Part shown: positions 5,730 through 63,890 of the stretch, piece by piece
Numbering within the stretch: position 1 is the first letter of the stretch
How the letters are laid out: every line of letters begins with the position of its first letter
From: Flavobacterium sp. SUN046
GTDB taxonomy: Bacteria; Bacteroidota; Bacteroidia; Flavobacteriales; Flavobacteriaceae
Direction: 5' to 3'
Assembly: GCF_028867965.1 (NCBI RefSeq)
Contig: NZ_JAPQNT010000002.1
Coordinates: forward strand, 346,914 to 410,913
DNA: 64,000 nt
The notes under the pieces: model-generated
What the model was told of the DNA's origin: nothing
The model's database searches: none
Seen by the model: the letters and a program-made list of their open reading frames with translations, nothing else
Made by a program: the position numbers and the translations under genes

Positions 5730-5756
5730 AAGTTCGTAAATTTATAAGTTAGCAGC
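5730..5756 (+). repeat. Remnant right end of the cassette-type repeat (locus A boundary)
   Basis: AAGTTCG at 5730-5736 and GTTAGCAGC at 5748-5756 match the right-arm start and the GTT end of the fuller copies elsewhere, but the rest of the element is missing. The following ATG is only 5 bp away, as expected for a cassette boundary. The match is short, so this is tentative. Confidence 0.4.
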
Positions 5757-5761
5757 AATTT

Positions 5762-6361
5762 ATGAAAAACAAAATCATAATATCATTTTTATTAATTCTC
5801 ATGATTTCTAAAATTGGATTTTCACAAGAGAATAAAATATATTTAGGAAATATTATTTGCGATTCAACTTCTATTCAAAATGAAGAAAAGAATGTATGGA
5901 GAAATCATTTTTCTTCAATATTTGAATCTAAAAATAAAATTGAAATTAGAATTTTCATTATGAGATCTAAGCAGTATATATCACTTTCATATGACAGCTC
6001 ATGGAAACTTACAAAATACAAATACAATGAGCAAAATGAAAAATATGATGTTTTAAAAATAACCGATTCAGTAAAACTTGATAAAATTTTCAAAACTTTA
6101 GTCAATAATAATATTTTTTCTTTGCCTGATAGTCAAAAAGTAGAATTAGGAAAATACTATTATGATTTAGATTTAAACGAAATATCAGGTGCAGGAATAG
6201 GATATAGTCATCCTTTTGAGGACTCTATAGAATTTAAAGTTGGTGAAAAATATAGATGTTACTCATATTATGAAACTAAAGAAGTAAGTGACTTTTATCC
6301 ACAAAATATAGAATTTAAGCAATTTTTAAATATTCTTAACTGCTTAAACGAAATAGATTAA
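5762..6361 (+). CDS. Hypothetical secreted protein, cassette-like cargo 1 of locus A
   Basis: This is a 199-residue protein with signal peptide MKNKIIISFLLILMISKIGFSQ, so probably periplasmic or surface exposed. No domain is recognised. It begins 5 bp after a GTTAGCAGC remnant, and its stop codon lies 6 bp before a full copy of the structured repeat. It therefore has the one-ORF-plus-site layout of a gene cassette. Local composition is a little more AT-rich than the flanking core genes. Confidence 0.65.
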   Translation: MKNKIIISFLLILMISKIGFSQENKIYLGNIICDSTSIQNEEKNVWRNHFSSIFESKNKIEIRIFIMRSKQYISLSYDSSWKLTKYKYNEQNEKYDVLKITDSVKLDKIFKTLVNNNIFSLPDSQKVELGKYYYDLDLNEISGAGIGYSHPFEDSIEFKVGEKYRCYSYYETKEVSDFYPQNIEFKQFLNILNCLNEID

Positions 6362-6367
6362 ACTTCT

Positions 6368-6500
6368 GCTAACACAGGTTTCACGAGATTGCGGGTAAAT
6401 TGCTAAAAATTATGTTTATCTTTCGCAAGAAATTTAGTAGTAACAGAAAATACTCGGTTCCGAAGTCCGCAACCTCGTGAAGCCTGGAAACGTTAACAGC
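6368..6500 (+). repeat. Structured cassette-type repeat, copy A (attC-like), full length
   Basis: The 133-bp element starts with GCTAAC at 6368 and ends with GTTAACAGC at 6492-6500. Its arms 6375-6394 and 6467-6486 form a stem of about 20 bp with one A-C mismatch and one wobble pair. Outside the stem there is an asymmetric internal loop (one base on the left, GAAAC on the right) before AAC pairs with GTT. The inner part holds CTTTCGCAAGAAAT, itself a short hairpin, at about 6419-6432. It lies directly after a stop codon, in the same orientation as the gene. Confidence 0.75.
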
Positions 6501-6516
6501 TATTGTAGCTCAGAAA

Positions 6517-6810
6517 ATGCTAAAAATGAATAAAATTAAGGTAACTCCATTATTTTTAGTTTTAGTTCCTTTGGAAATAATTCTAATATTTTGCACACTA
6601 TATTATTTATTAATTGACAATAAAGGAGGAATGGCTCTTGCTGGTTTGATTTCCTTAATTGCAGCAATATTTAATGGAACCTTAATTGTAATTGAACGTT
6701 TGGTTATTAACGTTAAAGGAATGAATAACAAATGGATTTGGACAATCGAATTGATCATAATCGCTTGTGCAATAATTTTTATAATCCAAAATGGTATTTC
6801 TTTTGGTTAA
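6517..6810 (+). CDS. Small multi-pass membrane protein, cassette-like cargo 2 of locus A
   Basis: The 97-residue hydrophobic protein has about three membrane segments (residues about 10-33, 38-55 and 75-93). No family is recognised. A second ATG at 6526 (MNKIKVTPLF) is an equally plausible start. It sits between repeat copy A, 16 bp upstream, and repeat copy B, 12 bp downstream, so it is the only gene of its unit. Confidence 0.6.
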   Translation: MLKMNKIKVTPLFLVLVPLEIILIFCTLYYLLIDNKGGMALAGLISLIAAIFNGTLIVIERLVINVKGMNNKWIWTIELIIIACAIIFIIQNGISFG

Positions 6811-6822
6811 AAAACAACAGAT

Positions 6823-6905
6823 GTTAACAGCTGCTTTATGCTATTGCGAGAAAAGTGCAAAATTCACGTTTATCTTTCGCAAGAAGTTGTATTTTAGCTG
6901 AAAAC
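6823..6905 (+). repeat. Structured cassette-type repeat, copy B, right half lost
   Basis: It begins with GTTAACAGCTGC at 6823 and carries GCTATTGCGAGA and AAGTGCAAAATT, then CTTTCGCAAGAAG, all shared with copy G near 63.8 kb. After about 6905 the similarity ends, and no GTT end with a complementary right arm is found before the convergent peptidase gene. It follows the stop of the 97-residue ORF in the same orientation. It appears to be the decayed last site of locus A. Confidence 0.65.
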
Positions 6906-6971
6906 ACATAATCTCTTATCTGTCAATAAAATAAGGGAGAAACATATCATGCAAAATTAAATATAAAAACC

Positions 6972-8006
6972 TTATTTCCCATCTTTATCAACCACAATTC
7001 TAGCATCACGGTTAGCTATTTCCCAAGCAATTGAAAATCCTAATTGCGCTCTTTTAGTTAAAGCATCAAATTCAATTTTATCAACTTCATCACTTGCTTT
7101 GTGGTAATCGGCGTGAACTCCGTTGAATAAAAATACTACTGGGATTCCGTGTTTTGCAAAATTATAATGATCTGAACGGTAATAAAATCGGTTTGGATCT
7201 TTTCTATCATTAAATTTATAATCAATGTTTAAGTGTGTGTATTTCGTATTAACTGCTTCACAAATATTAAATAAGTCAGTTGAAAGATAATCTGAGCCAA
7301 TTAAATAAATGTAATTATTACTGTCTTTATGCGCATCATCACGGCGACCAATCATGTCAATATTTACATCGGCAACCGTATTTTTTAATGGAAATAGTGG
7401 ATTTTGAGAATAATAACTCGAACCATATAAGCCATGCTCTTCACCAGTCATGTGCAAAATTAAAATGGAACGTTTTGGACCGTGTCCTTCTTTCTTAGCT
7501 TTTTCGAATGCTTGAGCGATTTCTAAAAGTGCTACGGTTCCAGAACCATCATCATCGGCACCATTATAAACTTCTCCATTTTTCATCCCAACATGATCGT
7601 AATGTGCTGAAACTACTACAATTTCTTCAGGTTTTTCTGTTCCTTCAATAAATGCCCAGATGTTTTCTGAATCAGGTAAGTTTTCATTGTATTGTTTGTT
7701 CATGAAAGCTGCAGGAACAGTTTGATAATAACTTGTAGCGCCTTTTGGAAAAGGAATTCCAGCTTTTTTATATTGTTCGATTAAGTAACGTCCGGCTTTT
7801 TTTTGACCTTCACTTCCTGTTTCTCGACCTTGCATTTCATCGGATGCAACTATGTCTAAATGTGTTTTTAATTCGCTTGAAGTAATAGTATTAATGTAGC
7901 TGTTTACATCAATTGGAGTGTTTACTTTATTGACTGTTGTGGGTTGGCTTCCTGAACAACCAATTATTAGTAATGATAAGGTCCCAAATGAGAGTATTTT
8001 TTTCAT
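6972..8006 (-). CDS. M28 family zinc aminopeptidase, lipoprotein
   Basis: The 344-residue metallopeptidase has a lipoprotein signal (MKKILSFGTLSLLIIGC, lipobox Cys at residue 17). The co-catalytic zinc motifs of family M28 are all visible: SAHYDHVG, NGADDDGSGT, MTGEEHGLYGS, NIDMIG and RSDHYNFAKHGIPVVF. It probably releases N-terminal residues from peptides in the periplasm or at the outer membrane. The start codon of the downstream M28 gene and the stop of the DUF3667 gene are 2 bp apart on the minus strand, suggesting co-transcription. Confidence 0.9.
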   Translation of the reverse strand: MKKILSFGTLSLLIIGCSGSQPTTVNKVNTPIDVNSYINTITSSELKTHLDIVASDEMQGRETGSEGQKKAGRYLIEQYKKAGIPFPKGATSYYQTVPAAFMNKQYNENLPDSENIWAFIEGTEKPEEIVVVSAHYDHVGMKNGEVYNGADDDGSGTVALLEIAQAFEKAKKEGHGPKRSILILHMTGEEHGLYGSSYYSQNPLFPLKNTVADVNIDMIGRRDDAHKDSNNYIYLIGSDYLSTDLFNICEAVNTKYTHLNIDYKFNDRKDPNRFYYRSDHYNFAKHGIPVVFLFNGVHADYHKASDEVDKIEFDALTKRAQLGFSIAWEIANRDARIVVDKDGK

Positions 8007-8008
8007 GA

Positions 8009-9154
8009 TTAGTGTATGTTTATAAAAGTGTAAACTACAAAAAGTAGTAATACGATTGATATTAATATGATATTTATTAATAGTAATCCCATGCTCTTAA
8101 AGAAAGATATCGTTCTACTTTCTCCATAAAAGCGATGATGCGCAGGAAAGAAGTAGTAAAACATCCAAAGATATCCCACAAAATTTATTAAAGATTTCAC
8201 TACTTTGATAACTATAAAGTGATCGAAATAGCCAAGCAATTTATTTGTCAAAAATAGAATTAAAACTACTAACAATAAAAACGAGAAATAATGTAAAGTA
8301 AAAATGCCATGGTCAAAATAATACCACCTCTTTTTGTTGTGAAATAACCATAACACAAATGCAAATAGCGGCATGTAAATAAATAGTGTTTTCGGAAAAT
8401 TATGCTTTGCTTCTTCTGTAAATTTTTCCCAAAGTTCACTATTAGTGTATTTATCATTTAACGGAATAGTTTTTTTTGCCAACCAATATTCTATATCATC
8501 AATTTCATCGGGATTTACTTTTCTAATAGAGTCCATTTGAGCAATCGACTTATATCCTGAATTGAAAAGACTATTTGCTTTTTCAATATCTTTATCTTTT
8601 TTGGCTAATTGAATAAACTTCTTCAACGAGTCGGCTTCAACAGGTTTTAGAATTCCCTTGTTTTTTAACTCTTCAATTTTTAACTCTTCACTACTTGGTT
8701 TAGATTTATGAATGGAATCTAAAGCCAATGAATCTTTAATTTCTTCTTGTTTTACTTCATCTTCATAATTGTAATATTCATTTTTTGCTTTTCCATTTGA
8801 TTTATCGTTGATTTGTATAAAGTCAGATTTTTTGTCATTTGGAAAGATAGCAATTAAAAGAAAGGTAACGAAACTAATAAAAATATACAATCGAACAGGA
8901 GCCAAATAGGAAAGTCTCTTTCCAGATAAATACTCTTTTGTAAGCGATGCAGGACGTAATAATAGATTTTTTATTGTTTTCCAAAAAGCATTTTCATAAT
9001 GCGTTAAATCTTCAAAAAAATGGACAAATAAATGAAAAAAAGTTTTTCTAGTATCTGAATTCTCTTGACCACAATTAGAACAAAAACGATTTTCTACTAC
9101 ATAATTGCAGTTCAAACAAGTTTTGTCTTTGCGTAACTGATTTTTGTGTGCCAT
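8009..9154 (-). CDS. DUF3667 membrane protein with N-terminal zinc ribbon
   Basis: In this 381-residue protein the N-terminus holds two CxxC pairs (CLNC and CSNC, residues about 14-33), a zinc ribbon. The conserved DUF3667 block HFFEDLTHYENAFWKTIKNL, then the LSGKRLSYLAPVRLYIFISF region, follows. A charged central region (about residues 125-235) separates the first membrane segment from about four C-terminal segments. The family is common in Bacteroidota; its function is unknown. It lies directly upstream of, and in line with, the M28 peptidase gene. Confidence 0.85.
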   Translation of the reverse strand: MAHKNQLRKDKTCLNCNYVVENRFCSNCGQENSDTRKTFFHLFVHFFEDLTHYENAFWKTIKNLLLRPASLTKEYLSGKRLSYLAPVRLYIFISFVTFLLIAIFPNDKKSDFIQINDKSNGKAKNEYYNYEDEVKQEEIKDSLALDSIHKSKPSSEELKIEELKNKGILKPVEADSLKKFIQLAKKDKDIEKANSLFNSGYKSIAQMDSIRKVNPDEIDDIEYWLAKKTIPLNDKYTNSELWEKFTEEAKHNFPKTLFIYMPLFAFVLWLFHNKKRWYYFDHGIFTLHYFSFLLLVVLILFLTNKLLGYFDHFIVIKVVKSLINFVGYLWMFYYFFPAHHRFYGESRTISFFKSMGLLLINIILISIVLLLFVVYTFINIH

Positions 9155-9267
9155 ATATAATTATCAAAAAATATTCGAATGTAAATCTATTAAAAATATT
9201 TATTATTACTTTTATTTACTTCAATTAGTGACTAAATTTTATATTTGTTACAAATTAACTCCAACTT

Positions 9268-9723
9268 ATGCAATCTAAAGCTACAACACCCGATCAATAC
9301 ATAGACGAATTACCTGAAGATAGAAAAGCAGCAATGCAAAAACTTCGTGATGTTGTCAATCGAAATCTGCCTAAAGGATTAGAAGAAGTTATGAGTTATG
9401 GCATGTTGGGTTATGTTGTACCACATTCAATTTATCCGAAAGGATATCATTGTGATCCTAAATTGCCATTAGGTTTTTTTAATATTGCTTCTCAAAAGAA
9501 TTCTATTAATATTTATCACATGGTTCTTTATGCCAACAAAAATCTTCATGATTGGTTTGTTGCAGAATATCCTAAACATTGCAAATCTAAATTAGATATG
9601 GGAAAAAGTTGTGTTCGATTTAAAAAATTAGACGATATTCCTTATGATTTAATTGGCGAATTGATGACAAAAGTAAGTGTTGAAAAATATATTGAAATGT
9701 ATGAAAAACTATTAGAAAAATAA
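9268..9723 (+). CDS. DUF1801 domain protein
   Basis: The 151-residue protein is of the DUF1801 (YdhG-like, frataxin-like fold) family. The diagnostic features are the N-terminal TTPDQYIDELPEDRKAAMQKLR, the EVMSYGMLGYVVP segment and the later FFNIASQKNSINIYHM strand. Its biochemical role is not established. The stop codon abuts the ATG of the TauE/SafE gene without a gap, so the two are probably co-transcribed. A second, broken DUF1801 gene is present at 39.0-39.4 kb. Confidence 0.85.
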   Translation: MQSKATTPDQYIDELPEDRKAAMQKLRDVVNRNLPKGLEEVMSYGMLGYVVPHSIYPKGYHCDPKLPLGFFNIASQKNSINIYHMVLYANKNLHDWFVAEYPKHCKSKLDMGKSCVRFKKLDDIPYDLIGELMTKVSVEKYIEMYEKLLEK

Positions 9724-10527
9724 ATGGAAGTCAATCATATTATTGGAAATATACTTGCTGTTTTTGTTGGAATTACTTTAGGGCTAATTGGTAGTGGTGG
9801 TTCAATTCTATCAGTTCCTATTTTAGTTTATGTCATGAGTGTTGAGCCGACTTTGGCAACTGCCTATTCGCTTTTTATCGTTGGAACCACGGCATTATTT
9901 GGTGGAATTCAAAAGGCAAATCAAAAATTAGTTGATTTTAAAAAAGTAATTTTATTTGGTATTCCAACAATTTTGGCTGTATTTATTACTCGCAAAGTTA
10001 TTGTGCCAAATATTCCTGATGTTATATTTTCGACTTCATCATTTACATTGAATAAATCGGTTTTAATTATGATTGTATTTGCAATTGTAATGATTTCAGC
10101 ATCAATAAGAATGATAAAACCTGTGAAAGAGAATAATGTTATTGATGATTTTAAACTTAATTATTTTGCCATTTTTATTCAAGGATTATTTATAGGTTTA
10201 GTAGCAGGATTTGTTGGTTCAGGTGGCGGATTTCTTATTATTCCGGCGTTGTTATTTTTAGCTAAAACTCCAATGAAAATGGCTGTTGGAACTTCACTTT
10301 TTATTGTTTCAGCACAATCATTAATAGGATTTATTGGTGACATTCGTCCAGATCAAAGCATTGATTGGAATTTAATTTTAATATTCACTGCTTGTTCAAT
10401 AGTTGGTGTTTTTATTGGTAATTATTTTTCTAAAAAATTTTTGGGCGAAAAATTAAAAGTTGGTTTTGGTTGGTTTGTTCTAGCTATGGGAATTTATATT
10501 ATTATTAAAGAACTTTTTCTTACTTAA
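9724..10527 (+). CDS. TauE/SafE family sulfite/sulfur-anion exporter
   Basis: The 267-residue membrane protein has about seven to eight transmembrane helices. Two inverted half-repeats each begin with a Gly-rich motif (LGLIGSGGSILSVPIL near residue 19 and GFVGSGGGFLIIPALLFL near residue 161), the hallmark of TauE/SafE permeases. It likely exports sulfite or a related sulfur anion from the cytoplasm. The adjacent persulfide-dioxygenase/rhodanese gene would produce sulfite or thiosulfate, which supports this substrate by context. Confidence 0.88.
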   Translation: MEVNHIIGNILAVFVGITLGLIGSGGSILSVPILVYVMSVEPTLATAYSLFIVGTTALFGGIQKANQKLVDFKKVILFGIPTILAVFITRKVIVPNIPDVIFSTSSFTLNKSVLIMIVFAIVMISASIRMIKPVKENNVIDDFKLNYFAIFIQGLFIGLVAGFVGSGGGFLIIPALLFLAKTPMKMAVGTSLFIVSAQSLIGFIGDIRPDQSIDWNLILIFTACSIVGVFIGNYFSKKFLGEKLKVGFGWFVLAMGIYIIIKELFLT

Positions 10528-10676
10528 TATTGAATAATTAAAACTTTTTAATATGTTCCAATGAATTCATTTTTCATTTAATTAATAGATTTGAATAGTA
10601 TTATTTTGTTAAATTTGTAACAAAGGTTATTTCAAATTATAAGGAACGTAGTAATTTTACATAATTAATTTTAGGT

Positions 10677-12098
10677 ATGAAAATCGAACAAATATATACA
10701 GGTTGTTTAGCACAAGGCGCTTATTACATTGAAAGTAATGGTGAAGTTGCTATTATCGACCCATTAAGAGAAGTGCAACAATATATTGACAAAGCAAATA
10801 CTGCTAATGCAAAAATTAAATTCATTTTTGAAACTCATTTTCATGCTGATTTTGTTAGTGGTCATGTAACTTTAGCCCAAAAAACTGGAGCTCCTATTAT
10901 TTATGGTCCAAAAGCAAATCCGAGTTTTGAAGCACATATAGCCAAAGATGGAGAAGTTTTTCAGTTAGGCGAAATTACAATCACTTGTCTGCACACGCCT
11001 GGACATACTATGGAAAGTTCGTGTTATTTATTGAAAGATAAAACCGGTCAAGATTATGCCTTATTTAGCGGAGACACTTTGTTTTTGGGCGATGTTGGTC
11101 GACCAGATTTAGCGCAAAAAGCAGCTGATATTACTCAAGAACAATTAGCAGAAATTTTATATGATAGTTTACGTTCTAAAGTTATGACATTGGCAGATAA
11201 TGTGATTGTTTATCCGGCTCACGGTGCTGGAAGTGCTTGTGGTAAAAATTTAAGTAAAGAAACTATCGGAAGTATTGGCGACCAAAAAGCAACCAATTAT
11301 GCGTTGCGAGCCGATATGACAAAAGCAGAATTTGTTACTGAGGTTACCGACGGATTATTGCCGCCACCAGCATATTTTCCTATGAATGTGAAGTTGAATA
11401 AAGAAGGTTATGATGATGTTCAAAATGTAATTAATAGCGTTAAATCATTTGATGCTAAAACTTTTGAAGCTGTAGCAAATGAAACGAATGCTTTAATTTT
11501 AGATGTTCGTCATGAAAGTGATTTTGAAAAAGGACACATTCCAAATTCAATTTTTATTGGTATTCACGGACAATTTGCGCCTTGGGTTGGAGCTTTAATA
11601 CTAGATAATAAGCAACCAATTCTTTTAGTTACACCTTATGGTAAAGAAGAAGAAACTATAAAACGTTTGGCTAGAGTAGGCTATGACGCTACTTTAGGAT
11701 ATTTGAACGGCGGATTTGAAAGTTGGATAAATGCTGGATATGAATTTGATACCGTAACATCAGTTACCGCTCAAGATTTAGAAACTATCGTTAACGAAAA
11801 AACTGATGATAAAAATGTTTTAATTTTTGATGTAAGAAAACCCGGTGAATATGCAGCAGAACACATTTTAGATGTTCCTTCAACACCATTAGATTTCTTA
11901 AATGAGCATTTATCAGAATTTCCAAAAGAAGAAAATTTCTATTTGCATTGCGCAGGCGGTTATCGTTCAATGATTGCAGCGTCAATTTTAAAATCTCGTG
12001 GTTATCATAATGTTATAAATGTATTAGGTGGATTTTCTGCAATTAAAAACACCGAAATTAAAACATCAAGTTATGTTTGTCCATCAACTTTAAAATAA
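10677..12098 (+). CDS. Persulfide dioxygenase-like MBL hydrolase fused to two rhodanese domains
   Basis: This is a 473-residue fusion. Residues about 1-240 form a metallo-beta-lactamase fold of the persulfide dioxygenase (ETHE1/CstB-like) type with THFHADFVSGH, TPGHTMESS, FSGDTLFLGDVGRPD and YPAHGAGSACG. Residues about 255-360 are a first rhodanese domain whose active-site position reads TPYGKE, without a cysteine. Residues about 370-465 are a second rhodanese domain with the active loop CAGGYRS. It should oxidise low-molecular-weight persulfides (probably bacillithiol persulfide here) and transfer sulfane sulfur. It follows the TauE/SafE exporter. Confidence 0.9.
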   Translation: MKIEQIYTGCLAQGAYYIESNGEVAIIDPLREVQQYIDKANTANAKIKFIFETHFHADFVSGHVTLAQKTGAPIIYGPKANPSFEAHIAKDGEVFQLGEITITCLHTPGHTMESSCYLLKDKTGQDYALFSGDTLFLGDVGRPDLAQKAADITQEQLAEILYDSLRSKVMTLADNVIVYPAHGAGSACGKNLSKETIGSIGDQKATNYALRADMTKAEFVTEVTDGLLPPPAYFPMNVKLNKEGYDDVQNVINSVKSFDAKTFEAVANETNALILDVRHESDFEKGHIPNSIFIGIHGQFAPWVGALILDNKQPILLVTPYGKEEETIKRLARVGYDATLGYLNGGFESWINAGYEFDTVTSVTAQDLETIVNEKTDDKNVLIFDVRKPGEYAAEHILDVPSTPLDFLNEHLSEFPKEENFYLHCAGGYRSMIAASILKSRGYHNVINVLGGFSAIKNTEIKTSSYVCPSTLK

Positions 12099-12189
12099 AT
12101 ACAATTAAGATAAAATTAAGAGCTAAAAATAAATAAATTTATATATTTGAATTATATATTAAAATTAAATAATTAAAAACAATAAAAAA

Positions 12190-12366: not shown

Positions 12367-12390
12367 TTTTGATTTAAGTTTTATAATTAA

Positions 12391-12418: not shown

Positions 12419-12430
12419 TTAATTTAAAAT

Positions 12431-12472: not shown

Positions 12473-12488
12473 AAACAGAATATAACAA

Positions 12489-39381: not shown

Positions 39382-39499
39382 AAAATCAGTAATACTTAGC
39401 TCAGTTTTTTTTTGTTTTTAATTCAGCCATTAAAAAAAAATAGATTAGGTGGTTTATTTAGTTAACTTATTTTAAGATGATATATTTGTTATTCTCATA

Positions 39500-39630
39500 C
39501 GTAACTTTCCGTCACTTTTAATCAGTTGCTAACCTCATTAATCGCATATTTTCTATTAGAAATACTATTTCTTTCGAATGATAACTGTGAATTTAGCGAT
39601 TTCTTGTAATTTATTTAAAGGGCTGTTAGC
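39500..39630 (-). repeat. Structured cassette-type repeat, copy C, divergent full length
   Basis: Read on the minus strand it runs from GCTAACAGCCC (39630) to GGAAAGTTACG (39500). It keeps the hairpin core in altered form (CATTCGAAAGAAAT), the GAAAATATGCG block, and the arms CCCTTTAAATAA / TGATTAAAAGTGA. The inserted GGAAA before GTT corresponds to the asymmetric loop of copy A. It follows the stop of the 157-residue DUF2628-like gene by 8 bp in the same orientation. Confidence 0.65.
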
Positions 39631-39638
39631 GATAGTTT

Positions 39639-40112
39639 TTATTTTTCACTTAAATACATTATTAAAATAAAACAAAACAAAACTGAAATTACTGTTAAAA
39701 TTGAGGTTCCGCTTGTTTTCGCTATGTATTTTTTTTTCAATATTTCGTCACTATCAAATTTTGTCAAAGCTTCATTTATTTTTTTCTTTGCATGTTTTAT
39801 ATAAATCCAATTGCCAAAAAAACCGACAAAAAAACAAAGTGTGATATTAATTGAAAATTGAATTAATTTATTTAATTCTATGGAATAATTTAGCTTCAAA
39901 AATAATATTTGTTGAGCAGTAGTGAAGATTAATATTATTCCAAATATTAGTAATGATTGCTTATACATTTTCCTATATAAAATCCAAAATATTCCAAATA
40001 AAAAAGCAGGTAAATTAAAACTTATTCTTTTTCCCTTTTCAAATTTTTCCACTTTGTCTATGTAATATTCAATAGACTTTTTAAAAAATATTTCAAAGTA
40101 TAATTTTTCCAT
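39639..40112 (-). CDS. DUF2628-like small membrane protein, cassette-like cargo of locus B
   Basis: The 157-residue protein contains FNLPAFLFGIFWILYRKMYKQ (residues about 33-53), the typical DUF2628 segment. Further membrane helices lie at about 55-70, 88-106 and 137-153. The function is unknown. It is the only gene between repeat copies D (upstream, 52 bp) and C (downstream), in the same orientation as both. Confidence 0.65.
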   Translation of the reverse strand: MEKLYFEIFFKKSIEYYIDKVEKFEKGKRISFNLPAFLFGIFWILYRKMYKQSLLIFGIILIFTTAQQILFLKLNYSIELNKLIQFSINITLCFFVGFFGNWIYIKHAKKKINEALTKFDSDEILKKKYIAKTSGTSILTVISVLFCFILIMYLSEK

Positions 40113-40163
40113 AGATGATTTTAGCTTTTGTTGTTTGGTTCAATTTTGAAGTTATAAAATGTC

Positions 40164-40257
40164 ACTCAACGTTTCGCGCCTTCATGAATTGGCGAACATC
40201 GTGACGGCTATATTTTCTACTAAGATACTATTTTTTGCGAAAGAAATACATCAATTT
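40164..40257 (-). repeat. Structured cassette-type repeat, copy D, left arm missing
   Basis: On the minus strand the element enters at TAAATTGATGTATTTC, immediately after the stop of the 141-residue ORF. It then runs through CTTTCGCAAAAAAT, the TTAGTAGAAAATAT block and GTTCGCCAATTCATGAAGG to GAAACGTTGAGT at 40164. The left arm with AAC is absent, so the ORF end appears joined directly into the middle of the site. The end GTTGAGT fits the canonical GTTRRRY form. Confidence 0.7.
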
Positions 40258-40258
40258 A

Positions 40259-40684
40259 TCAGTAGCTTTTGTTTTCAAAAAATGTAATTTTCTTCTTTAC
40301 AGTTTCTTTAAGGACATTTTCTAAAATCTTGAATTTCGTTAAATGACTTTCACTTTTTTCTTTAATAAACAAGAAATCAAACTTATTAAATGATTTAGTC
40401 GATTTTTTGTATTCTGTATATTCAACTAACTTGTTTTCTATTGTATATTTTTTTTCTATTAGAAAAACATTTAAGTAAGTTAATTCTAAATTGTTTTCAC
40501 TTATTTCAATACTTTTTAAATATTTTTTTTGCTCAAATATTAAATCTGTAAGCCAAAGCAAACCTAAAATAAAATACGTTCGATAACTAATTTTTTTATC
40601 AAGTAAAAAATAACTAAGAATTGATAATCCTCCAAAAATTAGAATATAAGAATAATAATTGTCAAATAATATTCGAAACTTCAT
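40259..40684 (-). CDS. Hypothetical membrane-anchored protein, cassette-like cargo of locus B
   Basis: The 141-residue protein has two short hydrophobic segments in its first 50 residues, then a Lys-rich soluble part. No family is recognised. Its stop codon lies inside the place where repeat copy D should have its left arm, so the C-terminus may be a fusion product or truncation. It starts 35 bp after repeat copy E. Confidence 0.55.
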   Translation of the reverse strand: MKFRILFDNYYSYILIFGGLSILSYFLLDKKISYRTYFILGLLWLTDLIFEQKKYLKSIEISENNLELTYLNVFLIEKKYTIENKLVEYTEYKKSTKSFNKFDFLFIKEKSESHLTKFKILENVLKETVKKKITFFENKSY

Positions 40685-40718
40685 TTGATGTCTTTTTTTT
40701 TTAAAAGTTACTACTTAT

Positions 40719-40845
40719 GTTACGCTGTTTGGAGCAGTGGCGAACTTCGTAACCGCATATTTTCCACTAAGATACTATTTCTTGCGAAAGAAATACATCA
40801 ATTTTAGCACATTTATAGCCATTTCTTGAAACCGTTGTTATATGC
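40719..40845 (-). repeat. Structured cassette-type repeat, copy E, full length
   Basis: On the minus strand it begins GCATATAACAACGGTTTC (40845). It contains CTTTCGCAAGAAAT, GTGGAAAATATGC and GCGGTTACGAAGTTCGCCA, and ends near GCGTAACA at 40719. The arms GGTTTCAAGAAATGGC and GCCACTGCTCCAAAC pair imperfectly. It lies 8 bp after the stop of the 199-residue FG-GAP-like gene, in the same orientation. Confidence 0.75.
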
Positions 40846-40853: not shown

Positions 40854-41453
40854 TTATTCTAATTTATCATAAATCAACTTCCATTTTTTCGCTTTCTGAT
40901 TGTATTTAAAAATCCTTCTATTCTTTTGATATGCGTTTGCATGAAGAAAAGTTGTAATTGTTTTCTTTGTTGAATTGATTTCGATTGGGAAAAATTCTAC
41001 CGTATTGCTTAAATATAAACTTTCATAAAATTTTTTGTCTTTAGCTTGTAGAAAGTAAGCATACAAAGGTCCACCGTTTCCACCAACATCACGTTTAATC
41101 GCCAAATCTTCCATTCCGTCAAAATTAAAATCGGCAACTATAAAGTTTCCAGAGTCGTTTTCGTCACCTGTTGGCAATTCGCTATTTATTTTAGTACTGT
41201 ATGATTTAACATTTTTGCAATCATTGAAAGAATCTATATAAAGTCCTTCAGTTTCTATTTTTAAAGCTTGAATTTTTTGAGACACTTTGTTTGTAATCTT
41301 AATTAAAACTTGAATAGAATCGAGTTTTTTCGAATTTAATGTAATTGTAAAATCAAATTCTTTTGAAAGCTTTTTGTATGAACAAGTTTGACTTACAGCT
41401 TTAAAGGAAATCAAAGTTATTAAAAAAATTAGTTTCAAAACGTTCATTTTCAA
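40854..41453 (-). CDS. Secreted FG-GAP/XAC2610-like protein, cassette-like cargo of locus B
   Basis: The 199-residue protein has a signal peptide (MKMNVLKLIFLITLISFKAVSQ). The motif VADFNFDGMEDLAIKRDVGG, followed by GPLYAYFLQ, is a calcium-binding-like DxDxDGxxD repeat seen in FG-GAP/VCBS and XAC2610-related proteins. Location is periplasmic or surface. It is the first gene of the minus-strand array of locus B and is followed directly by repeat copy E. Confidence 0.7.
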   Translation of the reverse strand: MKMNVLKLIFLITLISFKAVSQTCSYKKLSKEFDFTITLNSKKLDSIQVLIKITNKVSQKIQALKIETEGLYIDSFNDCKNVKSYSTKINSELPTGDENDSGNFIVADFNFDGMEDLAIKRDVGGNGGPLYAYFLQAKDKKFYESLYLSNTVEFFPIEINSTKKTITTFLHANAYQKNRRIFKYNQKAKKWKLIYDKLE

Positions 41454-57530: not shown

Positions 57531-57591
57531 AATAAAAAATTTTAGATTGCAAAGGTAATAAAAGGTTTTTAAAATATTTTTAAAAAACTAC

Positions 57592-57621
57592 TTGCAAGTA
57601 ATAAAAACCTTTGTATATTTG
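57592..57621 (+). promoter_or_regulatory. Bacteroidota-type promoter of rpmH
   Basis: TTG at 57592-57594 and TATATTTG at 57614-57621 are 19 bp apart. The following CACTCG matches the two tRNA promoters in this window. Confidence 0.75.
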
Positions 57622-57679
57622 CACTCGGTTTTAAAAACACATCAAAACGATTATTACACGATTTTAAAGATAAAAAGCA

Positions 57680-57841
57680 ATGAGCAAAAGAACGTTTCAA
57701 CCATCGAAAAGAAAAAGAAGAAATAAACACGGATTTATGGACAGAATGGCTTCTGCAAATGGAAGAAAAGTCCTTGCGCGTCGTAGAGCTAAAGGAAGAC
57801 ACAAATTAACTGTTTCATCTGAACCAAGACACAAAAAATAA
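57680..57841 (+). CDS. rpmH: Ribosomal protein L34 (bL34)
   Basis: ATG 57680 to TAA 57841 gives 53 residues. The protein is very basic, starting [19 protein letters not shown] and continuing with the family core [19 protein letters not shown] promoter precedes it and a terminator follows. It is not in an operon with rnpA or yidC here, unlike many bacteria. Confidence 0.97.
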
Positions 57842-57864
57842 TGATTAGTTTCTAGTCAATATCA

Positions 57865-57897
57865 AGCCGTTACTTTTATTAGTAGCGGCTTTTTTTT
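57865..57897 (+). terminator. Terminator of rpmH
   Basis: AGCCGTTACT / AGTAGCGGCT forms a stem with one wobble and a TTTATT loop, followed by seven T. Confidence 0.85.
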
Positions 57898-58005
57898 GAA
57901 TCTGTTTATAAAATTTAATAAGTTTTAGAAGCTATTTTTTTCATTTCAAAGCAAACAGATTATTTTTGAACACATAACAATACAACTAACTACACAATAA
58001 CTACA

Positions 58006-60858
58006 ATGCCAAAAGACAATTCAATAAAATCGGTTTTAATTATAGGTTCAGGTCCAATCGTTATTGGGCAAGCATGCGAATTTGATTACGCAGGTTCACA
58101 ATCAGCGCGTTCTATTCGCGAAGAAGGAATTGAAGTAATTTTAATCAATTCCAATCCAGCAACAATTATGACCGATCCAAGTATGGCAGATCATATTTAT
58201 TTATTGCCATTAACTACCAAATCAATAATTCAAATTCTAAAAGAACACCCACAAATTGATGCTGTTCTTCCCACAATGGGCGGACAAACAGCATTAAATT
58301 TATGTCTTGAAGCCGATGAAAAAGGAATTTGGGAAGATTTTGGTGTAAAAATGATTGGTGTTGATGTAAATGCAATCAATATTACCGAAGATAGAGAACA
58401 ATTTAAACAATTATTACACCGAATTAATGTACCAACTGCACCAGCAGAAACAGCAACATCGTTCTTAAAAGGAAAAGAAATTGCTCAAAAGTTCGGATTT
58501 CCATTGGTAATTCGTCCGTCATTTACACTTGGCGGAACTGGAGCAGCATTTGTACACAGCAAAGAGGAGTTTGACGAAAAACTAACCTACGGATTAGAAA
58601 TGTCACCCATTCATGAAGTGCTTATTGATAAAGCATTAATTGGTTGGAAAGAATACGAATTAGAACTTTTAAGAGATAAAAACGACAATGTTGTAATCAT
58701 TTGTTCTATCGAAAATATGGATCCAATGGGAATTCATACCGGAGATTCAATTACGGTCGCACCAGCAATGACCTTATCAGATACTACTTTTCAGAAAATG
58801 CGTGATATGGCCATTTTGATGATGCGTTCTATCGGAAATTTTGCAGGCGGTTGTAATGTACAATTCGCAGTTTCACCAGACGAAAAAGAAGATATTGTTG
58901 CCATTGAAATCAATCCGAGAGTTTCTCGTTCATCAGCATTAGCATCAAAAGCAACTGGTTATCCAATTGCAAAAGTAGCTTCAAAATTGGCTTTAGGATA
59001 TCATTTAGATGAATTACCAAATCAAATTACCAAACTAACTTCAGCATTATTCGAACCAACTTTAGATTATGTTATCGTAAAAATTCCAAGATGGAACTTC
59101 GATAAATTTGAAGGTGCCGACCGAACTTTAGGACTTCAAATGAAATCAGTTGGCGAAGTTATGGGAATTGGTCGTTCGTTTCAAGAAGCACTTCATAAAG
59201 CAACACAATCGCTTGAAATTAAGCGAAATGGGTTAGGAGCAGACGGAAAAGGATACAAAAACTACGAACAAATCATTGAGAAATTAACGTTTGCAAGTTG
59301 GGATAGAGTTTTTGTTATATATGATGCGATTGCCATGGGAATTCCGCTTTCGAGAATCCACGAAATCACCAAAATTGATATGTGGTTTTTGAAACAGTAT
59401 GAAGAATTATATTCACTAGAAAGAGAAATTTCGACATATAAATTAGAAAATTTACCAAAAGAATTATTATTAGAAGCCAAACAAAAAGGCTATGGCGACC
59501 GTCAAATTGCTCACATGTTGGGTTGTTTGGAAAGTCAGGTTTATAAATTGCGTGATGAAATGAATATCAAGCGCGTTTATAAATTAGTAGATACTTGTGC
59601 TGCCGAATTTAAAGCACAAACGCCTTATTATTACTCAACTTTTGAAGCTGAAATTCAAACAGCAAATGGCGAAAGATACGTTCACAACGAAAGTATAGTT
59701 TCTGATAAAAAGAAAGTTGTTGTTTTGGGTTCGGGTCCAAATAGAATTGGGCAAGGAATTGAATTTGACTATTCTTGCGTTCACGGAGTTTTGGCTGCCA
59801 AAGAATGTGGTTATGAAACGATTATGATTAATTGTAATCCTGAAACAGTTTCTACCGATTTTGATACAGCCGATAAATTGTATTTTGAACCTGTTTTTTG
59901 GGAACATATTTACGACATCATTCGCCACGAAAAACCCGAAGGCGTAATCGTTCAATTAGGCGGACAAACGGCTTTAAAATTAGCAGAAAAATTATCTAAA
60001 TACGGAATCAAAATATTAGGAACTTCGTTTGATGCTTTAGATTTAGCCGAAGATAGAGGTCGTTTTTCAGATTTATTAACCGAACTTAAAATTCCATTTC
60101 CACAATTCGGAATTGCAGAAAATGCAGATCAAGCAAGTGCTTTGGCCGATGTTTTAGATTTTCCTTTATTGGTTCGTCCATCGTATGTATTAGGCGGACA
60201 AGGAATGAAAATTGTAATTAACAAACAAGAATTAGAAGAACATGTAATTGATTTATTGAAAAATATTCCAGGAAATAAATTGCTTTTGGATCATTATTTG
60301 GATGGTGCAATTGAAGCCGAAGCTGATGCCATTTGCGACGGTGAAAATGTGTATATCATTGGAGTTATGGAACATATTGAACCATGCGGAATTCATTCGG
60401 GTGATTCAAATGCTACTTTACCACCATTTAATTTGGGTGAATTTGTGATGCAACAAATAAAAGATCATACTAAAAAAATTGCTTTAGCACTGCGAACAGT
60501 TGGTTTAATCAACATTCAATTTGCTATAAAAGACGATACGGTGTATATCATTGAAGCCAATCCGAGAGCTTCTAGAACGGTTCCTTTTATTGCAAAAGCA
60601 TATGGCGAACCTTATGTGAACTATGCTACCAAAGTAATGCTGGGCGAAAATAAAGTGACCGATTTCACATTTAATCCGCAATTAAAAGGTTATGCTATAA
60701 AACAACCCGTTTTTTCTTTTAGTAAATTTAAAGATGTAAATAAAGCACTTGGTCCCGAAATGAAATCTACAGGTGAAAGTATTTTGTTTATTGATGACTT
60801 AAAAGATGATCAGTTTTATGAATTGTATTCTAGACGAAAAATGTATTTGAGTAAATAA
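58006..60858 (+). CDS. carB: Carbamoyl-phosphate synthase large subunit, short form
   Basis: The 950-residue enzyme makes carbamoyl phosphate for pyrimidines and arginine. The two ATP-grasp halves are visible with their start motifs (VLIIGSGPIVIGQACEFDYAG at residue 9; VVVLGSGPNRIGQGIEFDY near 567) and phosphate loops GGTGAAFV and GGQGMKIV. An oligomerisation domain (about 400-545) lies between. The usual C-terminal allosteric MGS domain of about 120 residues is absent: the chain stops after SILFIDDLKDDQFYELYSRRKMY. carA is not adjacent. Confidence 0.95.
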   Translation: MPKDNSIKSVLIIGSGPIVIGQACEFDYAGSQSARSIREEGIEVILINSNPATIMTDPSMADHIYLLPLTTKSIIQILKEHPQIDAVLPTMGGQTALNLCLEADEKGIWEDFGVKMIGVDVNAINITEDREQFKQLLHRINVPTAPAETATSFLKGKEIAQKFGFPLVIRPSFTLGGTGAAFVHSKEEFDEKLTYGLEMSPIHEVLIDKALIGWKEYELELLRDKNDNVVIICSIENMDPMGIHTGDSITVAPAMTLSDTTFQKMRDMAILMMRSIGNFAGGCNVQFAVSPDEKEDIVAIEINPRVSRSSALASKATGYPIAKVASKLALGYHLDELPNQITKLTSALFEPTLDYVIVKIPRWNFDKFEGADRTLGLQMKSVGEVMGIGRSFQEALHKATQSLEIKRNGLGADGKGYKNYEQIIEKLTFASWDRVFVIYDAIAMGIPLSRIHEITKIDMWFLKQYEELYSLEREISTYKLENLPKELLLEAKQKGYGDRQIAHMLGCLESQVYKLRDEMNIKRVYKLVDTCAAEFKAQTPYYYSTFEAEIQTANGERYVHNESIVSDKKKVVVLGSGPNRIGQGIEFDYSCVHGVLAAKECGYETIMINCNPETVSTDFDTADKLYFEPVFWEHIYDIIRHEKPEGVIVQLGGQTALKLAEKLSKYGIKILGTSFDALDLAEDRGRFSDLLTELKIPFPQFGIAENADQASALADVLDFPLLVRPSYVLGGQGMKIVINKQELEEHVIDLLKNIPGNKLLLDHYLDGAIEAEADAICDGENVYIIGVMEHIEPCGIHSGDSNATLPPFNLGEFVMQQIKDHTKKIALALRTVGLINIQFAIKDDTVYIIEANPRASRTVPFIAKAYGEPYVNYATKVMLGENKVTDFTFNPQLKGYAIKQPVFSFSKFKDVNKALGPEMKSTGESILFIDDLKDDQFYELYSRRKMYLSK

Positions 60859-60864
60859 AAATTT

Positions 60865-60892
60865 AATCCCGAGTAACATCGGGATTTTTTTT
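60865..60892 (+). terminator. Terminator of carB
   Basis: The stem AATCCCGA / TCGGGATT has a 6-nt loop and is followed by a T run. Confidence 0.9.
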
Positions 60893-61035
60893 ACTGCTTT
60901 ATTTTCAATTTTTGTCGACTAAATGCACTGCTGTTGTGGTTTGAAGAGTATTTTCTCCTTTGAACGATTTTCGAATGTTTATAGAATCAATCTTTATAAA
61001 TTTGATATATAATTACTAAAGATTAGTTATTCGCT

Positions 61036-61431
61036 ATGAATGATATTTTTAATCCGATATATAGACAAGATTATTTAGAAGGCTATTCTAATGGTTTGAA
61101 TCCGCAGTTTCAAATGAATGAGACAGTTGATAACCTTGCATTTATCAGTGGATTTAATTCTGGAAGATTCGATTATGAGAGTTGGAATGGAAGTATTTCA
61201 AATGGAATTCCAAAGCGAATTATCACCAAAGAGATTTTGGAAGATTTTCTTCTTTCGGGATTATTAGGATTGAATATAGACACTAATGATTATACAATTT
61301 TTCAATTGAATATACTTTCAAAATGGTACCAAAGCGGCACAGAAAAGTATGAGCCAAACCATAGTTTGTATCTTTTTTCAATTTTAGAAAAGAATTCTAT
61401 TCAAATTAAAAATGAGACTTTTTATTTGTAG
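61036..61431 (+). CDS. Small conserved hypothetical protein
   Basis: The 131-residue cytoplasmic protein has the motif YLEGYSNGLNPQF and FISGFNSGRFDYE in its first half, then a helical part (ITKEILEDFLLSGLLGL). No function is known to me. The following 170-bp gap contains no recognisable element. Confidence 0.6.
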   Translation: MNDIFNPIYRQDYLEGYSNGLNPQFQMNETVDNLAFISGFNSGRFDYESWNGSISNGIPKRIITKEILEDFLLSGLLGLNIDTNDYTIFQLNILSKWYQSGTEKYEPNHSLYLFSILEKNSIQIKNETFYL

Positions 61432-61601
61432 ATAATTATTATATTTTATTAAATATCCAATTTTTAATTAGTTGAAAACTTTTATAATAATTATTTAATT
61501 TTAAATAAGAACTTAGATTTTATCATGTTTTTTTAAAAATTACAAACTTTATTAATTTTGTTTTTAAGCACAGTTCTTTGTTGGCAGATGCCTTATTTAT
61601 T

Positions 61602-61841
61602 TTAGTGATTTCCATATTTTTTTATAAACAATTTATACGTTTTATATAAAATGAATAATGAAAGAGGAATTGTTATAATTAAGGAAAAAACAAGTGCACC
61701 TATTGGCATATATGTATGTTTTTGAATTGGTTCAGTTAATTTCGAATAAGTTGTAATACAAAAATATAAACTAAAAAAAGTAACAAAACTTGCTGTTATT
61801 GTAATAAAAAGAGCTAAAATAAAAGTTGCTAATTTTTCCAT
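61602..61841 (-). CDS. Small two-helix membrane protein, cassette-like cargo of locus C
   Basis: The 79-residue protein has transmembrane helices at about residues 5-30 and 42-66, with a basic end. No family is recognised. It starts 19 bp after the right end of repeat copy F in the same orientation. No further repeat copy is recognisable after its stop, so it is the terminal unit of the array. Confidence 0.55.
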   Translation of the reverse strand: MEKLATFILALFITITASFVTFFSLYFCITTYSKLTEPIQKHTYMPIGALVFSLIITIPLSLFILYKTYKLFIKKYGNH

Positions 61842-61860
61842 AATTATTTTTCAAGGTTTC

Positions 61861-61993
61861 TGTCAACGTTTCGTAGCTTCACAAAGTGGCGAACTTCGTA
61901 ACCGCATATTTTCCACTAAGATACTATTTCTTGCGAAAGAAATGCATCAATTTATCACATTTCTCGCCATTTCTTGAAACCGATGTTAATAGC
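61861..61993 (-). repeat. Structured cassette-type repeat, copy F, full length
   Basis: On the minus strand it runs from AGCTATTAACATCGGTTTC to GAAACGTTGACA at 61861. Its arms GGTTTCAAGAAATGGCGA and TCGCCACTTTGTGAAGC pair imperfectly. The centre ATTTCTTTCGCAAGAAAT is a perfect hairpin with a TCGC loop, followed by GTGGAAAATATGC and GCGGTTACGAAG. It begins 11 bp after the stop of the HEPN-motif gene, same orientation. It is the best copy for building a consensus. Confidence 0.78.
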
Positions 61994-62004
61994 TGTACTT
62001 CTTT

Positions 62005-63714
62005 TTACTCTATATTTTCTATTATAGAAAGTATTGTATTATTCAATTTTATGGATAACTCTTTGATTTTATTTTGATTACTTAAATTATTTAATTTGTA
62101 TTTTTCAAGACTTTGTTCAAATTTTTCACCTTTTCTATGAGCTGCTCCAGTTGAACGAATTGTTTGGATTGCTTGTAAAACATCTATTATTAAAACAACA
62201 TTCTCTGTATTAATTCCAATTTCGTCCAAAGTTACATACAATAGAGAAATAGACCCTTTTATTGTTTTCCCATCGATTTTTTTTAGTGAAATCTTTTCTA
62301 ATAATTTCACATTTATTGAATCACAAAATATTTTTGCTAAAGCCTGAATTTGTTCATCAAATTCTTTCCATTCTTCTGTAAGAGGAATTCGTATTATTTT
62401 TAGAATATGTTTATCGTTTTCAGTTAATTCAATAAATAATTCTTCTTCGTACTTTTCTTTAAATATTGTGTTGATTTTTTCATATGATATTAAAAGGTGT
62501 GCTATTGGAGATTGTTCAACACTTGGAGAAGAAAATTTTGCTTCAAAATCAGTTTCAAATCTGTAATTTGAAATTGTTCCTCTTGGCGGAACATTATATT
62601 GTTTCCAATGTAATTGATCATTTTTTGGCAAACTACCTAAATCACCTAACCATACTTGGACTAAATCCTCTGATGTAATATCCAAATCAATACCCCATAG
62701 GTTTAAGCAAGTAAATCTATGTGAAGAAACTGTATATTTTTTTGGTTCTGAATAATATTTTAATAGTACAGATTTATTGAAGTAAACAGGAGTTAAAAAA
62801 TTTGGTGCTCCTGTATCTTTGAAATAACTACTCAATAACTTTTTATTACAAGAGAATTCAATATTCTGTCCATTCTCATTAACTTCATATATAAATTCAA
62901 TGAAGTCACTTTCTGTTTTCTTAAAACTATCTCTTGAAATTGGATTTTCGTATGGTCTAATAATATCTTTTCCTAAAAGTCTTGAATAACTTTTGAATCC
63001 CTTTACAAAATTTTCATTATAAACTTCAATGCTATATGAGCTATCAGTGTTTTTATATGAAGCATCTTTACTATCAAAAGGCATTTCCTTTTCAAATTTT
63101 CTTCTGTAGTCGTGAAATCTTACAAGACATGATTTTGTTAATGTCAAATAATTTCGTAAATATTTAGTATTTATGTATATAACTTCAAAATCTTCATCTT
63201 TTTTTAAATGTTTTGCGATTATATTTATATCACCATTAATTTCAATAGTATGAAACTCTTGTTTCTCCTCAACCCAAAATGCTTGATGATATAATATAAA
63301 ATGTTGTATTAATTCAAATCTATTTGGAATATAAGAATGAAAATGTCTTTGAATTACAAAAGGTTTTAAAGTTATCCCTTTAATCTTATACTTTATATTC
63401 TCTTCAAAATCCCAATCATTATCTACATTACCATCTATATATGGAATACCAAATTCAGAACCAATTTCCCAATCACCTCTTTCAAATAATACCTTTGTAG
63501 TTTTTTCATTTATAGGTTTGGCAAAACATGAAATAGTTGTTAAATCTTCATTTTTCTTTTGATGATCAATTTTTGCTATTAATGTCCAGTCATTATTGAG
63601 ATAATCCTTTTCAGAAATCCAATCTTCAAACGCTAAATAAGCATAACCTTCTATCGTTTCGTCTTTTTTAGGTTTGACAAAATCTTTAATCACTTTCGGT
63701 ATTCGGTTATCCAT
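62005..63714 (-). CDS. Large HEPN-motif protein, candidate defence RNase, cassette-like cargo of locus C
   Basis: The protein has 569 residues from ATG 63714 (MDNRIPKVIKDF). The frame stays open up to 63783, but that extension runs into repeat copy G and is not used. A conserved middle block reads TPVYFNKSVLLKYY, then FTCLNLWGIDLDI and VWLGDLGSLPKNDQLHWKQ; I know this pattern from a widespread uncharacterised family of similar size. Near residues 519-526 the sequence RSTGAAHR fits the HEPN ribonuclease motif Rx4-6H inside a predicted helix. An abortive-infection role is inferred. It is flanked by repeat copies G and F. Confidence 0.7.
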   Translation of the reverse strand: MDNRIPKVIKDFVKPKKDETIEGYAYLAFEDWISEKDYLNNDWTLIAKIDHQKKNEDLTTISCFAKPINEKTTKVLFERGDWEIGSEFGIPYIDGNVDNDWDFEENIKYKIKGITLKPFVIQRHFHSYIPNRFELIQHFILYHQAFWVEEKQEFHTIEINGDINIIAKHLKKDEDFEVIYINTKYLRNYLTLTKSCLVRFHDYRRKFEKEMPFDSKDASYKNTDSSYSIEVYNENFVKGFKSYSRLLGKDIIRPYENPISRDSFKKTESDFIEFIYEVNENGQNIEFSCNKKLLSSYFKDTGAPNFLTPVYFNKSVLLKYYSEPKKYTVSSHRFTCLNLWGIDLDITSEDLVQVWLGDLGSLPKNDQLHWKQYNVPPRGTISNYRFETDFEAKFSSPSVEQSPIAHLLISYEKINTIFKEKYEEELFIELTENDKHILKIIRIPLTEEWKEFDEQIQALAKIFCDSINVKLLEKISLKKIDGKTIKGSISLLYVTLDEIGINTENVVLIIDVLQAIQTIRSTGAAHRKGEKFEQSLEKYKLNNLSNQNKIKELSIKLNNTILSIIENIE

Positions 63715-63760
63715 TTTTGATTTTGTTTTGTTATAATTATTACGATTTTTCAGAGTATAG

Positions 63761-63890
63761 CTACTAACGTTTTGTGACTTCAAGAAGTGTCGAACTTCGT
63801 AACCGCATATTTTCCACTAAGATAAAATTTCTTGCGAAAGATAAGCGTCAATTTTGCACTTATCTCGCAATAGCGCAAAGCATCTATGTA
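63761..63890 (-). repeat. Structured cassette-type repeat, copy G, abutting the IS110-family element
   Basis: On the minus strand the right part is complete: CTTTCGCAAGAAAT, GTGGAAAATATGC, GCGGTTACGAAGTTCG, CACTTCTTGAAGTC, ending AAAACGTTAGTAGC at 63761. The left part matches copy B (GCTATTGCGAGA, AAGTGCAAAATT, GATGCTTT) instead of copy F and loses similarity at about 63886-63890. Only about 40 bp then separate it from the transposase ATG. It precedes the HEPN gene by about 50 bp. Confidence 0.7.

Follow-up and report, generated by a model that had tools for sequence, protein, structure and literature searches.

The seven copies of a structured repeat that lie scattered through a 64,000-nucleotide stretch of the Flavobacterium sp. 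SUN046 genome (contig NZ_JAPQNT010000002.1, positions 346,914 to 410,913 of the forward strand; hereafter the window) are very probably attC-like sites of an integron-like cassette system, found in Flavobacterium and some other Bacteroidota and associated with a tyrosine recombinase that is not IntI. We give this reading a probability of about 0.87. It draws on several features of the sequences: covariation in the stem of the sites, cassette borders, pairing of each site with the start of its own cassette, recurring units, the position and core of an attI-like site, attI-like junctions at the dispersed groups, and one empty site. We infer that the recombinase at the head of the arrays catalyses insertion, that it acts on a folded single strand and that the process continues today. 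A first-pass annotation of the window had spoken of integron-cassette-like units without an integrase. The first part of that description is borne out by the pairing, by the units that recur among unrelated neighbours, by the empty site and by the covarying stem. The second part holds for the window and fails for the genome: another contig, C14, carries a recombinase together with an attI-like site and a first cassette, and homologues of this recombinase head arrays in relatives.

Structured sites and their cassettes

The core CTTTCGCAAGAAAT occurs exactly at 6420 (+), 40777 (-), 61926 (-) and 63827 (-) of the window, with near copies at 6874, 40230 and 39567. At three mismatches it is in mild excess (29 matches, 17 expected; none of 100 shuffles reaches 29), and GCGGTTACGAAGTTCG with up to three mismatches gives five window matches for an expectation of 0.12. 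GTGGAAAATATGC at three mismatches is not above chance in the window (38 matches, 30.6 expected, 11 shuffles reaching 38), and its three exact copies all lie inside repeats. A covariance model, R1, was trained on 14 copies from the SUN046 genome, two of them from the window (6367 and 61859), with a stem of 18 pairs set by hand after the alignment was inspected. It returns exactly seven copies in the window at 57-147 bits, the next match scoring 16 bits, and 42 full sites in the genome, counted among the 150 of 5650 candidate stretches that were scored and after dropping a 43rd row that was the reverse strand of a palindrome. Exact cores number 13 in the genome and none in a reversed control. 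The dispersed repeat is therefore real and, as had been described, each copy takes the orientation of its gene and stands directly past a stop codon. The seven copies form three small and scattered groups (arrays 1, 2 and 3). An Rfam scan of the window gave two tRNAs only. Folded as DNA, the site at 6367-6500 has a z-score of -4.2, and that at 61859-61991 one of -1.0, which is not significant.

Read from 5' to 3', a site comprises R'' (NNNNNNAAC), a spacer A, L'' (such as GCGGTTTCAAGAAATGGCG), a roughly 75-nt loop, L' (CGCCACTTCTTGAAGCCGC), the spacer GAAAC and R' (GTTRNNNNN). This is the R''-L''-L'-R' order of attC, with its AAC and GTT, laid out as a long imperfect palindrome of 133 positions with an 18-pair stem. 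Across 145 aligned sites, 144 of them distinct, 17 of the 18 stem pairs have changed on both sides, paired cells amount to 90.3% against 64.1% when shuffled, and the stem covariation score is 0.59 against 0.14 for shuffled sites and 0.03-0.08 when the partner is slid, the alignment behind the pair count being one fitted to the structure, so that the figures lean toward the stem. A T.G pair persists in 122 of 143 sites, and the stem often has an A/C mismatch; our guess, by analogy with the bulged bases of attC, is that these may serve strand choice. The main type of site has equal arms with conserved non-Watson-Crick positions, and a variant on contigs C20 and C22 has, by eye, one bulge. In integron attC the R' follows the rule GTTRRRY, which the present sites do not keep.

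The R'' of an integron cassette belongs with the R' at that cassette's own start, which it meets in the circle; the adjacent R' is that of the next cassette. The present sites behave in the same way. In a test set of six arrays from five genomes (131 of 133 matches kept, those dropped being a palindrome's reverse strand and a 196-nt match), R'' agrees with its own distant start at 6.27 of 8 positions and with the adjacent R' at 3.08 of 8, over 121 neighbouring pairs. The own start is the better partner in 111 pairs, ties in seven and is worse in three, shuffled pairing gives a mean of 3.03 and a maximum of 3.48 in 10,000 shuffles, and each of the first six positions past GTT agrees in 111-116 of the 121 pairs. 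Named loci of other genomes repeat the result: 5.58 of 6 positions with the own start against 2.66 of 6 with the adjacent R' (67 pairs), exact 6/6 agreement in 50 pairs against one, and a shuffle maximum of 3.06. This second set comprised 39 of 70 named loci, those with sites, L277 being left out as from the same genome; eight of 120 rows were dropped, seven of L277 and one of L318. Circular cassettes inserted at GTT offer the simplest explanation of such pairing.

Could the repeat instead be a miniature inverted-repeat transposable element (MITE), or another palindromic repeat, that follows genes by chance? Small scattered groups, hairpins and probable insertion sequence (IS) copies in some sites would suit such an element. 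One would not expect it to show R'' paired with the far cassette end, nor long uniform arrays headed by a recombinase, nor units that recur with unrelated neighbours. Among 122 cassettes compared (median 733 bp) there are 22 pairs, all within a genome, that are 97.5-100% identical and aligned from first to last base (cut-off at least 85% identity over 90% of length), and the neighbours of recurring cassettes average 32% identity per side, with maxima of 39% upstream and 41% downstream. What recurs thus includes the open reading frame (ORF), with different neighbours on both sides, in place of the insertion independent of neighbouring genes that marks a MITE, no test for target-site duplication having been made; this alternative seems to us exceedingly improbable. 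The largest ORF of unique cassettes runs with the site in 101 of 109 and is opposed to it in eight. At the locus of array 1, both flanking genes (66 and 76% identical) are present in the relative G013, separated by a 69-bp gap without a site. The right-hand gene of array 1 is present in 28 of 40 genomes, SUN046 included, and a further site model, R2, applied to 24 of these loci found two sites in the SUN046 locus and none in the other 23.

The recombinase and its attI-like site

An IntI-family search of 150 Flavobacterium genomes gave 71 matches with E no higher than 1e-30, spread over 64 genomes, and 64 of the 71 recombinases were examined. Sites lie within 6 kb downstream and on the same strand for 37, and 18 lie within 1.5 kb of a contig end without a site. 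The 172 sites at these loci divide into 164 downstream on the same strand, none downstream on the opposite strand, one upstream on the same strand and seven upstream on the opposite strand, the last only at G084 (six) and G131 (one). The usual intI reads divergently from its array, a layout to which these 37 recombinases, all on the strand of their downstream sites, do not conform. At one of the exceptions (L106, G084:C1:1169115-1169936), a 276-aa recombinase lacking the N-terminal module described below has its six sites upstream and opposed, which is the classical divergent layout.

A profile made from three short-type enzymes gave 71 named loci in a public genome collection; 14 lie on contigs equal in length to contigs of the genus set, so that the two counts overlap. 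Sites lie downstream on the recombinase strand at 40 of these loci and account for 118 of 120 sites, the two exceptions lying upstream (L298) and, at a contig end, on the minus strand (L318). The 40 include loci of F. psychrophilum DSM 3660, F. soli, Pedobacter aquatilis (five sites), Nubsella zeaxanthinifaciens and metagenome-assembled genomes of Saprospiraceae. The Chryseobacterium plasmid NZ_CP041688 (L345) carries the recombinase with four attC-like sites, and a second Chryseobacterium plasmid, NZ_CP094530, the enzyme with no sites detected. The array of NZ_CP041688 also holds an annotated IS110 transposase and a group II intron maturase.

How does this enzyme relate to IntI? PMC9668308 takes an additional domain at patch III to define the integron integrase. 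All 29 aligned IntI of the canonical kind from Bacteroidota have this insertion, between the KDR motif and HxLRH; the 28 aligned recombinases of other Flavobacterium genomes lack it, as does that of C14. The TIGR02249 cut-off (265 bits) is reached by none of the 150 genus genomes, SUN046 included, three scanned recombinases scoring 196-217 bits, and canonical IntI exceed it in 105 of 395 phylum genomes. In the tree the 29 IntI form a clade of their own (91/69, not a starred branch), the short type (17 rows, 100/99) and long type (nine rows, 100/100) are separate, and C14 groups with the long type (97/91) on a long branch. Of three proteins scanned, two have NF040815 ('site-specific tyrosine recombinase/integron integrase') as their best-scoring family; one passes its cut-off, with 221 bits for a required 220, and the other two score 193 and 214. 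Pfam finds the SAM-like and catalytic domains only, leaving an N-terminal module without a match, for which the predicted structure is strand-strand-helix-strand-strand-helix. The recombinases of about 590 aa (L103, L104, L109, L132) have, by eye, about three copies of this module. A fold search returned generic tyrosine recombinases, and phage records gave only matches below 60% identity.

An ordinary IntI-family integron, with the window groups as clusters of attC sites lacking integron-integrases (CALINs), would share the logic of cassettes, R''/R' pairing, GTT and attI; TIGR02249 and PDB 2a3v (IntI4) are among the best relatives of the recombinase, and the site model also matches genomes of families that hold canonical IntI. 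The missing insertion, the unreached cut-off, the separate clade of IntI and the co-directional arrays all speak against it, and we consider it unlikely. Judged by the absence of the defining insertion, the recombinase is not IntI, and for this reason we prefer the name 'integron-like' for the system to 'ordinary integron' or 'CALIN'.

The attI position was sought with the R'' of the first cassette in 36 of the 37 arrays. In 33 of the 36 the first cassette starts 36-155 bp past the recombinase stop codon, the complement being 9/9 in 29 and 8/9 in four, which places a putative attI beside the recombinase gene. In the consensus from 26 junctions, positions -9 to -6 (TATA) and -1 (A) do not vary; it omits nine of 35 junctions, namely six of the long type, L182 and L191 (junction elsewhere) and L206 (core TATT), the last omitted after inspection while L218, of the same subfamily, was retained. 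The first junction of a second array in G061 was not found. In the subfamily of C14, a core like TGCGTATATTTATGA/GTT (the slash marking the junction) lies 123-158 bp past the stop codon in nine of 11 relatives, L350 differing in sequence; a matching R'' is present in the fetched stretch for four of nine, and L348 and L358 have no candidate. A strict attI pattern beginning TATAWACNAGTTR has no match in the SUN046 genome, whose own subfamily core differs.

These observations bear on a further possibility, that the host XerC and XerD move the cassettes, as they do pdif modules, and that the adjacent recombinase is a bystander. The left half of the SUN046 attI-like site, TTTCGTATA, resembles what we take to be an Xer arm, and the genome has other tyrosine recombinases that are Xer-like by length and tree position. 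Modules of the pdif kind are flanked by 28-bp XerC/XerD sites. The present sites are of about 133 nt with a covarying 18-pair stem, and not of 28 bp (no search was aimed at 28-bp sites), the insertion point keeps its short distance from the recombinase stop codon in 33 of 36 arrays, and attI cores differ, by eye, between recombinase subfamilies. An Xer-driven system is very unlikely.

Scattered groups and the SUN046 genome

On contig C14, a 357-aa recombinase is followed about 143 bp later by TATACTTCGTATATTTATGA/GTTAGGTGC, and the exact complement of GTTAGGTGC, GCACCTAAC, stands as R'' 2.3 kb further on. In G038, G011 and G028, arrays are headed by homologues 61-63% identical to the C14 enzyme. 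The first cassette on C14 (L066 13301-15525) holds HAD, ShosT-like and ShosA-like genes, the last two of an antiphage system: a single cassette with a three-gene antiphage-like unit.

Of the 13 loci in the genome whose first site has no other site within reach before it, 11 have a junction of at least 8/9, and L057 and L061, at 7/9 only, were left out of the set. The 17 bases before GTT at these 11 junctions match the SUN046 attI-like site at a mean of 10.5 of 17 positions (range 7-14; consensus TTTCGTATATTTTAGA/GTT), against a background of 5.06 over 8040 GTT, and none of 100,000 random sets of 11 reaches 10.5. First cassettes placed at attI-like sequences would explain the scattered groups, the simplest reading of which is probably insertion at attI-like chromosomal sites. 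Under the mechanism that we propose, a tyrosine recombinase without the IntI insertion, bearing a single N-terminal module of some 60-75 aa or, by eye, about three such modules, would be encoded at the head of the array, with an attI-like site about 36-158 bp past its stop codon. Free circular cassettes, usually of one ORF and one attC-like site, would insert there with exchange inside GTT, so that the array grows along the reading direction of the recombinase gene. At times the same enzyme would insert them at chromosomal sequences resembling attI, seeding small groups such as those of the window, whose features are as follows.

5731..5750 (+): attI-like insertion site AGTTCGTAAATTTATAA/GTT, first junction of array 1; 8/9 complement of the first-cassette R'', 14/17 to the SUN046 attI-like site (background fraction 0.00025)
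5748..6492 (+): cassette 1 of array 1, borders from the junctions; ORF 5762-6361, 199 aa, without Pfam match
6367..6500 (+): attC-like site of array 1, the best preserved palindrome; 131.5 bits as a training-set member, fold z-score as given above
6493..6952 (+): cassette 2 of array 1; ORF 6517-6810, 97 aa; R'' pairs 8/9 with junction 6492
6822-6952 (+): decayed attC-like site of cassette 2; 57 bits
41480..41499 (-): attI-like junction of array 2, GTATAGCTTATTTGAGA/GTT; 8/9 complement of the first R'', 9/17 to the SUN046 attI-like site (background 0.033)
40854..41453 (-): ORF of the first cassette of array 2, without Pfam match
40710..40843 (-): attC-like site of array 2; 121 bits, GTAACA in place of the expected R' GTT
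40259..40684 (-): ORF of the second cassette of array 2, 141 aa, without Pfam match
40162..40293 (-): attC-like site of array 2, 5' arm (R'', L'') missing; 72 bits, AAC not found
39639..40112 (-): ORF of the third cassette of array 2, DUF2628 (PF10947, 3.3e-15)
39497..39631 (-): degenerate attC-like site of array 2; 57 bits
63760..63892 (-): attC-like site of array 3, with a probable IS end in place of its 5' arm; 100 bits, same end at the contig ends of C20, C22 and C33
62005..63783 (-): ORF of the cassette after the 63760 site, array 3; R'' pairs 8/9 with junction 63768
61859..61991 (-): attC-like site of array 3, consensus-like; 147 bits, training-set member
61602..61841 (-): ORF of the last cassette of array 3, 79 aa, without Pfam match
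61580..61588 (-): R'' TCTGCCAAC of the last cassette of array 3; pairs 8/9 with its own start GTTGACAGA, remainder of the site not seen

Two copies called earlier need revision. What had been taken for a remnant at 5731-5750 is the attI-like junction and no decayed repeat; the copy at 63760-63892 stands as an attC-like site, its 5' arm lost to a probable IS end. Pfam and PADLOC gave no match in the scanned part (62008-63714) of the ORF 62005-63783.

Several contigs of the genome end in shared sequences, one common to C14, C20 and C22 and another to C12 (the end of the window), C20, C22 and C33. These are probably the two ends of an IS lying inside the L'' of attC-like sites. The end shared by C14, C20 and C22 had been considered as an attC variant, a view replaced by that of a probable IS end in L'', with subterminal repeats matching by eye. 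The frame at 63925-64000 of the window reads MQLQDALTNPKIFIGLDIHKKSWTV, presumably resembling the start of an IS110-family transposase, and the same end abuts attC-like sites at the contig ends of C12, C20, C22 and C33, a pattern reminiscent of the IS1111-attC elements, which target attC. On C20, a 347-aa ORF (L062 1586-2629) that looks like an IS110-type transposase lies beside an attC-like site; the end AAAGAACTGTGCTTAAAAACA recurs near 61580 in the window.

Spread and relation to known integrons

Site model R1 finds sites in 113 of the 150 Flavobacterium genomes at E 1e-4; the best E is 1e-10 or lower in 70 of the 113, at least four sites are present in 68, and both hold in 56. At the level of the order, R2 has matches in 96 of 296 genomes, from 40 of 90 genera. 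The site models were applied within the phylum only, where R2 matches may be canonical attC, sites of the Flavobacterium-type system or other hairpins. Two distant Bacteroidota (G206:C1 and G333:C1) show R2 matches over whole contigs, possibly other palindromic repeats or dispersed cassettes. A site match alone is not diagnostic outside the genus, so that there only loci with a recombinase and downstream sites count.

Beyond the lean of the covariation figures, several points weigh against the interpretation as an integron-like system. Seven recombinases (G058, G050, G056, G009, G043, G080 and G109) stand outside the 64 examined, and nine of the 64 have no nearby site though the contig continues. 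Three of 36 first cassettes are off position (L182 at 222 bp, L191 further away, L214 with none), and four of the 11 dispersed junctions score only 7-9 of 17. The duplicated cassettes had been cut at GTT before they were compared. G013 is the only one of 23 relatives found to keep both flanking genes together (within a 1.5 kb flank), the target base in its empty site is not identifiable, and no excision or circle was observed. In SUN046 itself, the link from C14 to the window arrays rests on attI resemblance, and the predicted model of the recombinase is uncertain between domains (pTM 0.53). At E 1e-4, 37 of the 150 genus genomes have no site and 27 of the 113 have a single one. R2 also matches 87 of 198 phylum genomes, including families with canonical IntI and some genomes with scattered matches; this control shows that matches outside the genus are not specific, and we have lowered the claim of spread, and slightly the odds, for that reason.

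Integron surveys identify integrons through IntI. PMC9024848 recounts that an earlier study had found only In0 in Bacteroidetes, to which one complete integron, in Salinibacter ruber M1, is now added. The literature compared includes PMC9024848, PMC2426708, PMC8618304, PMC9668308, PMC8946536 and PMC8400371. Among the matches listed in the open literature, with subscription papers and preprints outside its reach, there was no description of such a cassette system. We lean, by a little, toward seeing here a second integron lineage of Bacteroidota, one without the domain thought necessary for recombination in integrons, either an independent invention or a relic of IntI from before the insertion; it would be common in Flavobacterium, would head arrays in Pedobacter, Nubsella, Saprospiraceae and a Chryseobacterium plasmid, and would scatter single genes by insertion away from attI. 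If this is true, a common route of gene capture in these bacteria has been overlooked, the enzyme would reveal which parts of IntI are needed for recombination at structured sites, and the cassettes are a large unstudied gene pool.

With chromosomal integrons the system shares mostly one-gene cassettes, uniformly oriented and imperfectly palindromic sites, long arrays, the pairing of R'' with its own R', the GTT junction and an attI beside the recombinase. It differs in that the recombinase lacks the IntI insertion, has extra N-terminal modules and reads toward the cassettes, and in that GTTRRRY is not kept, the arms are equal with non-Watson-Crick positions, and cassettes are also found away from attI. 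The window groups look like CALINs, with at least two sites and no integrase in the window (array 3 reaching the contig end), whereas the genome has, on C14, a recombinase of a non-IntI family, an attI-like site and a first cassette. XerA, XerC and XerD have the same core domains; the enzyme described here differs from them in its many structured sites per genome, its cassettes and its N-terminal module without Pfam match.

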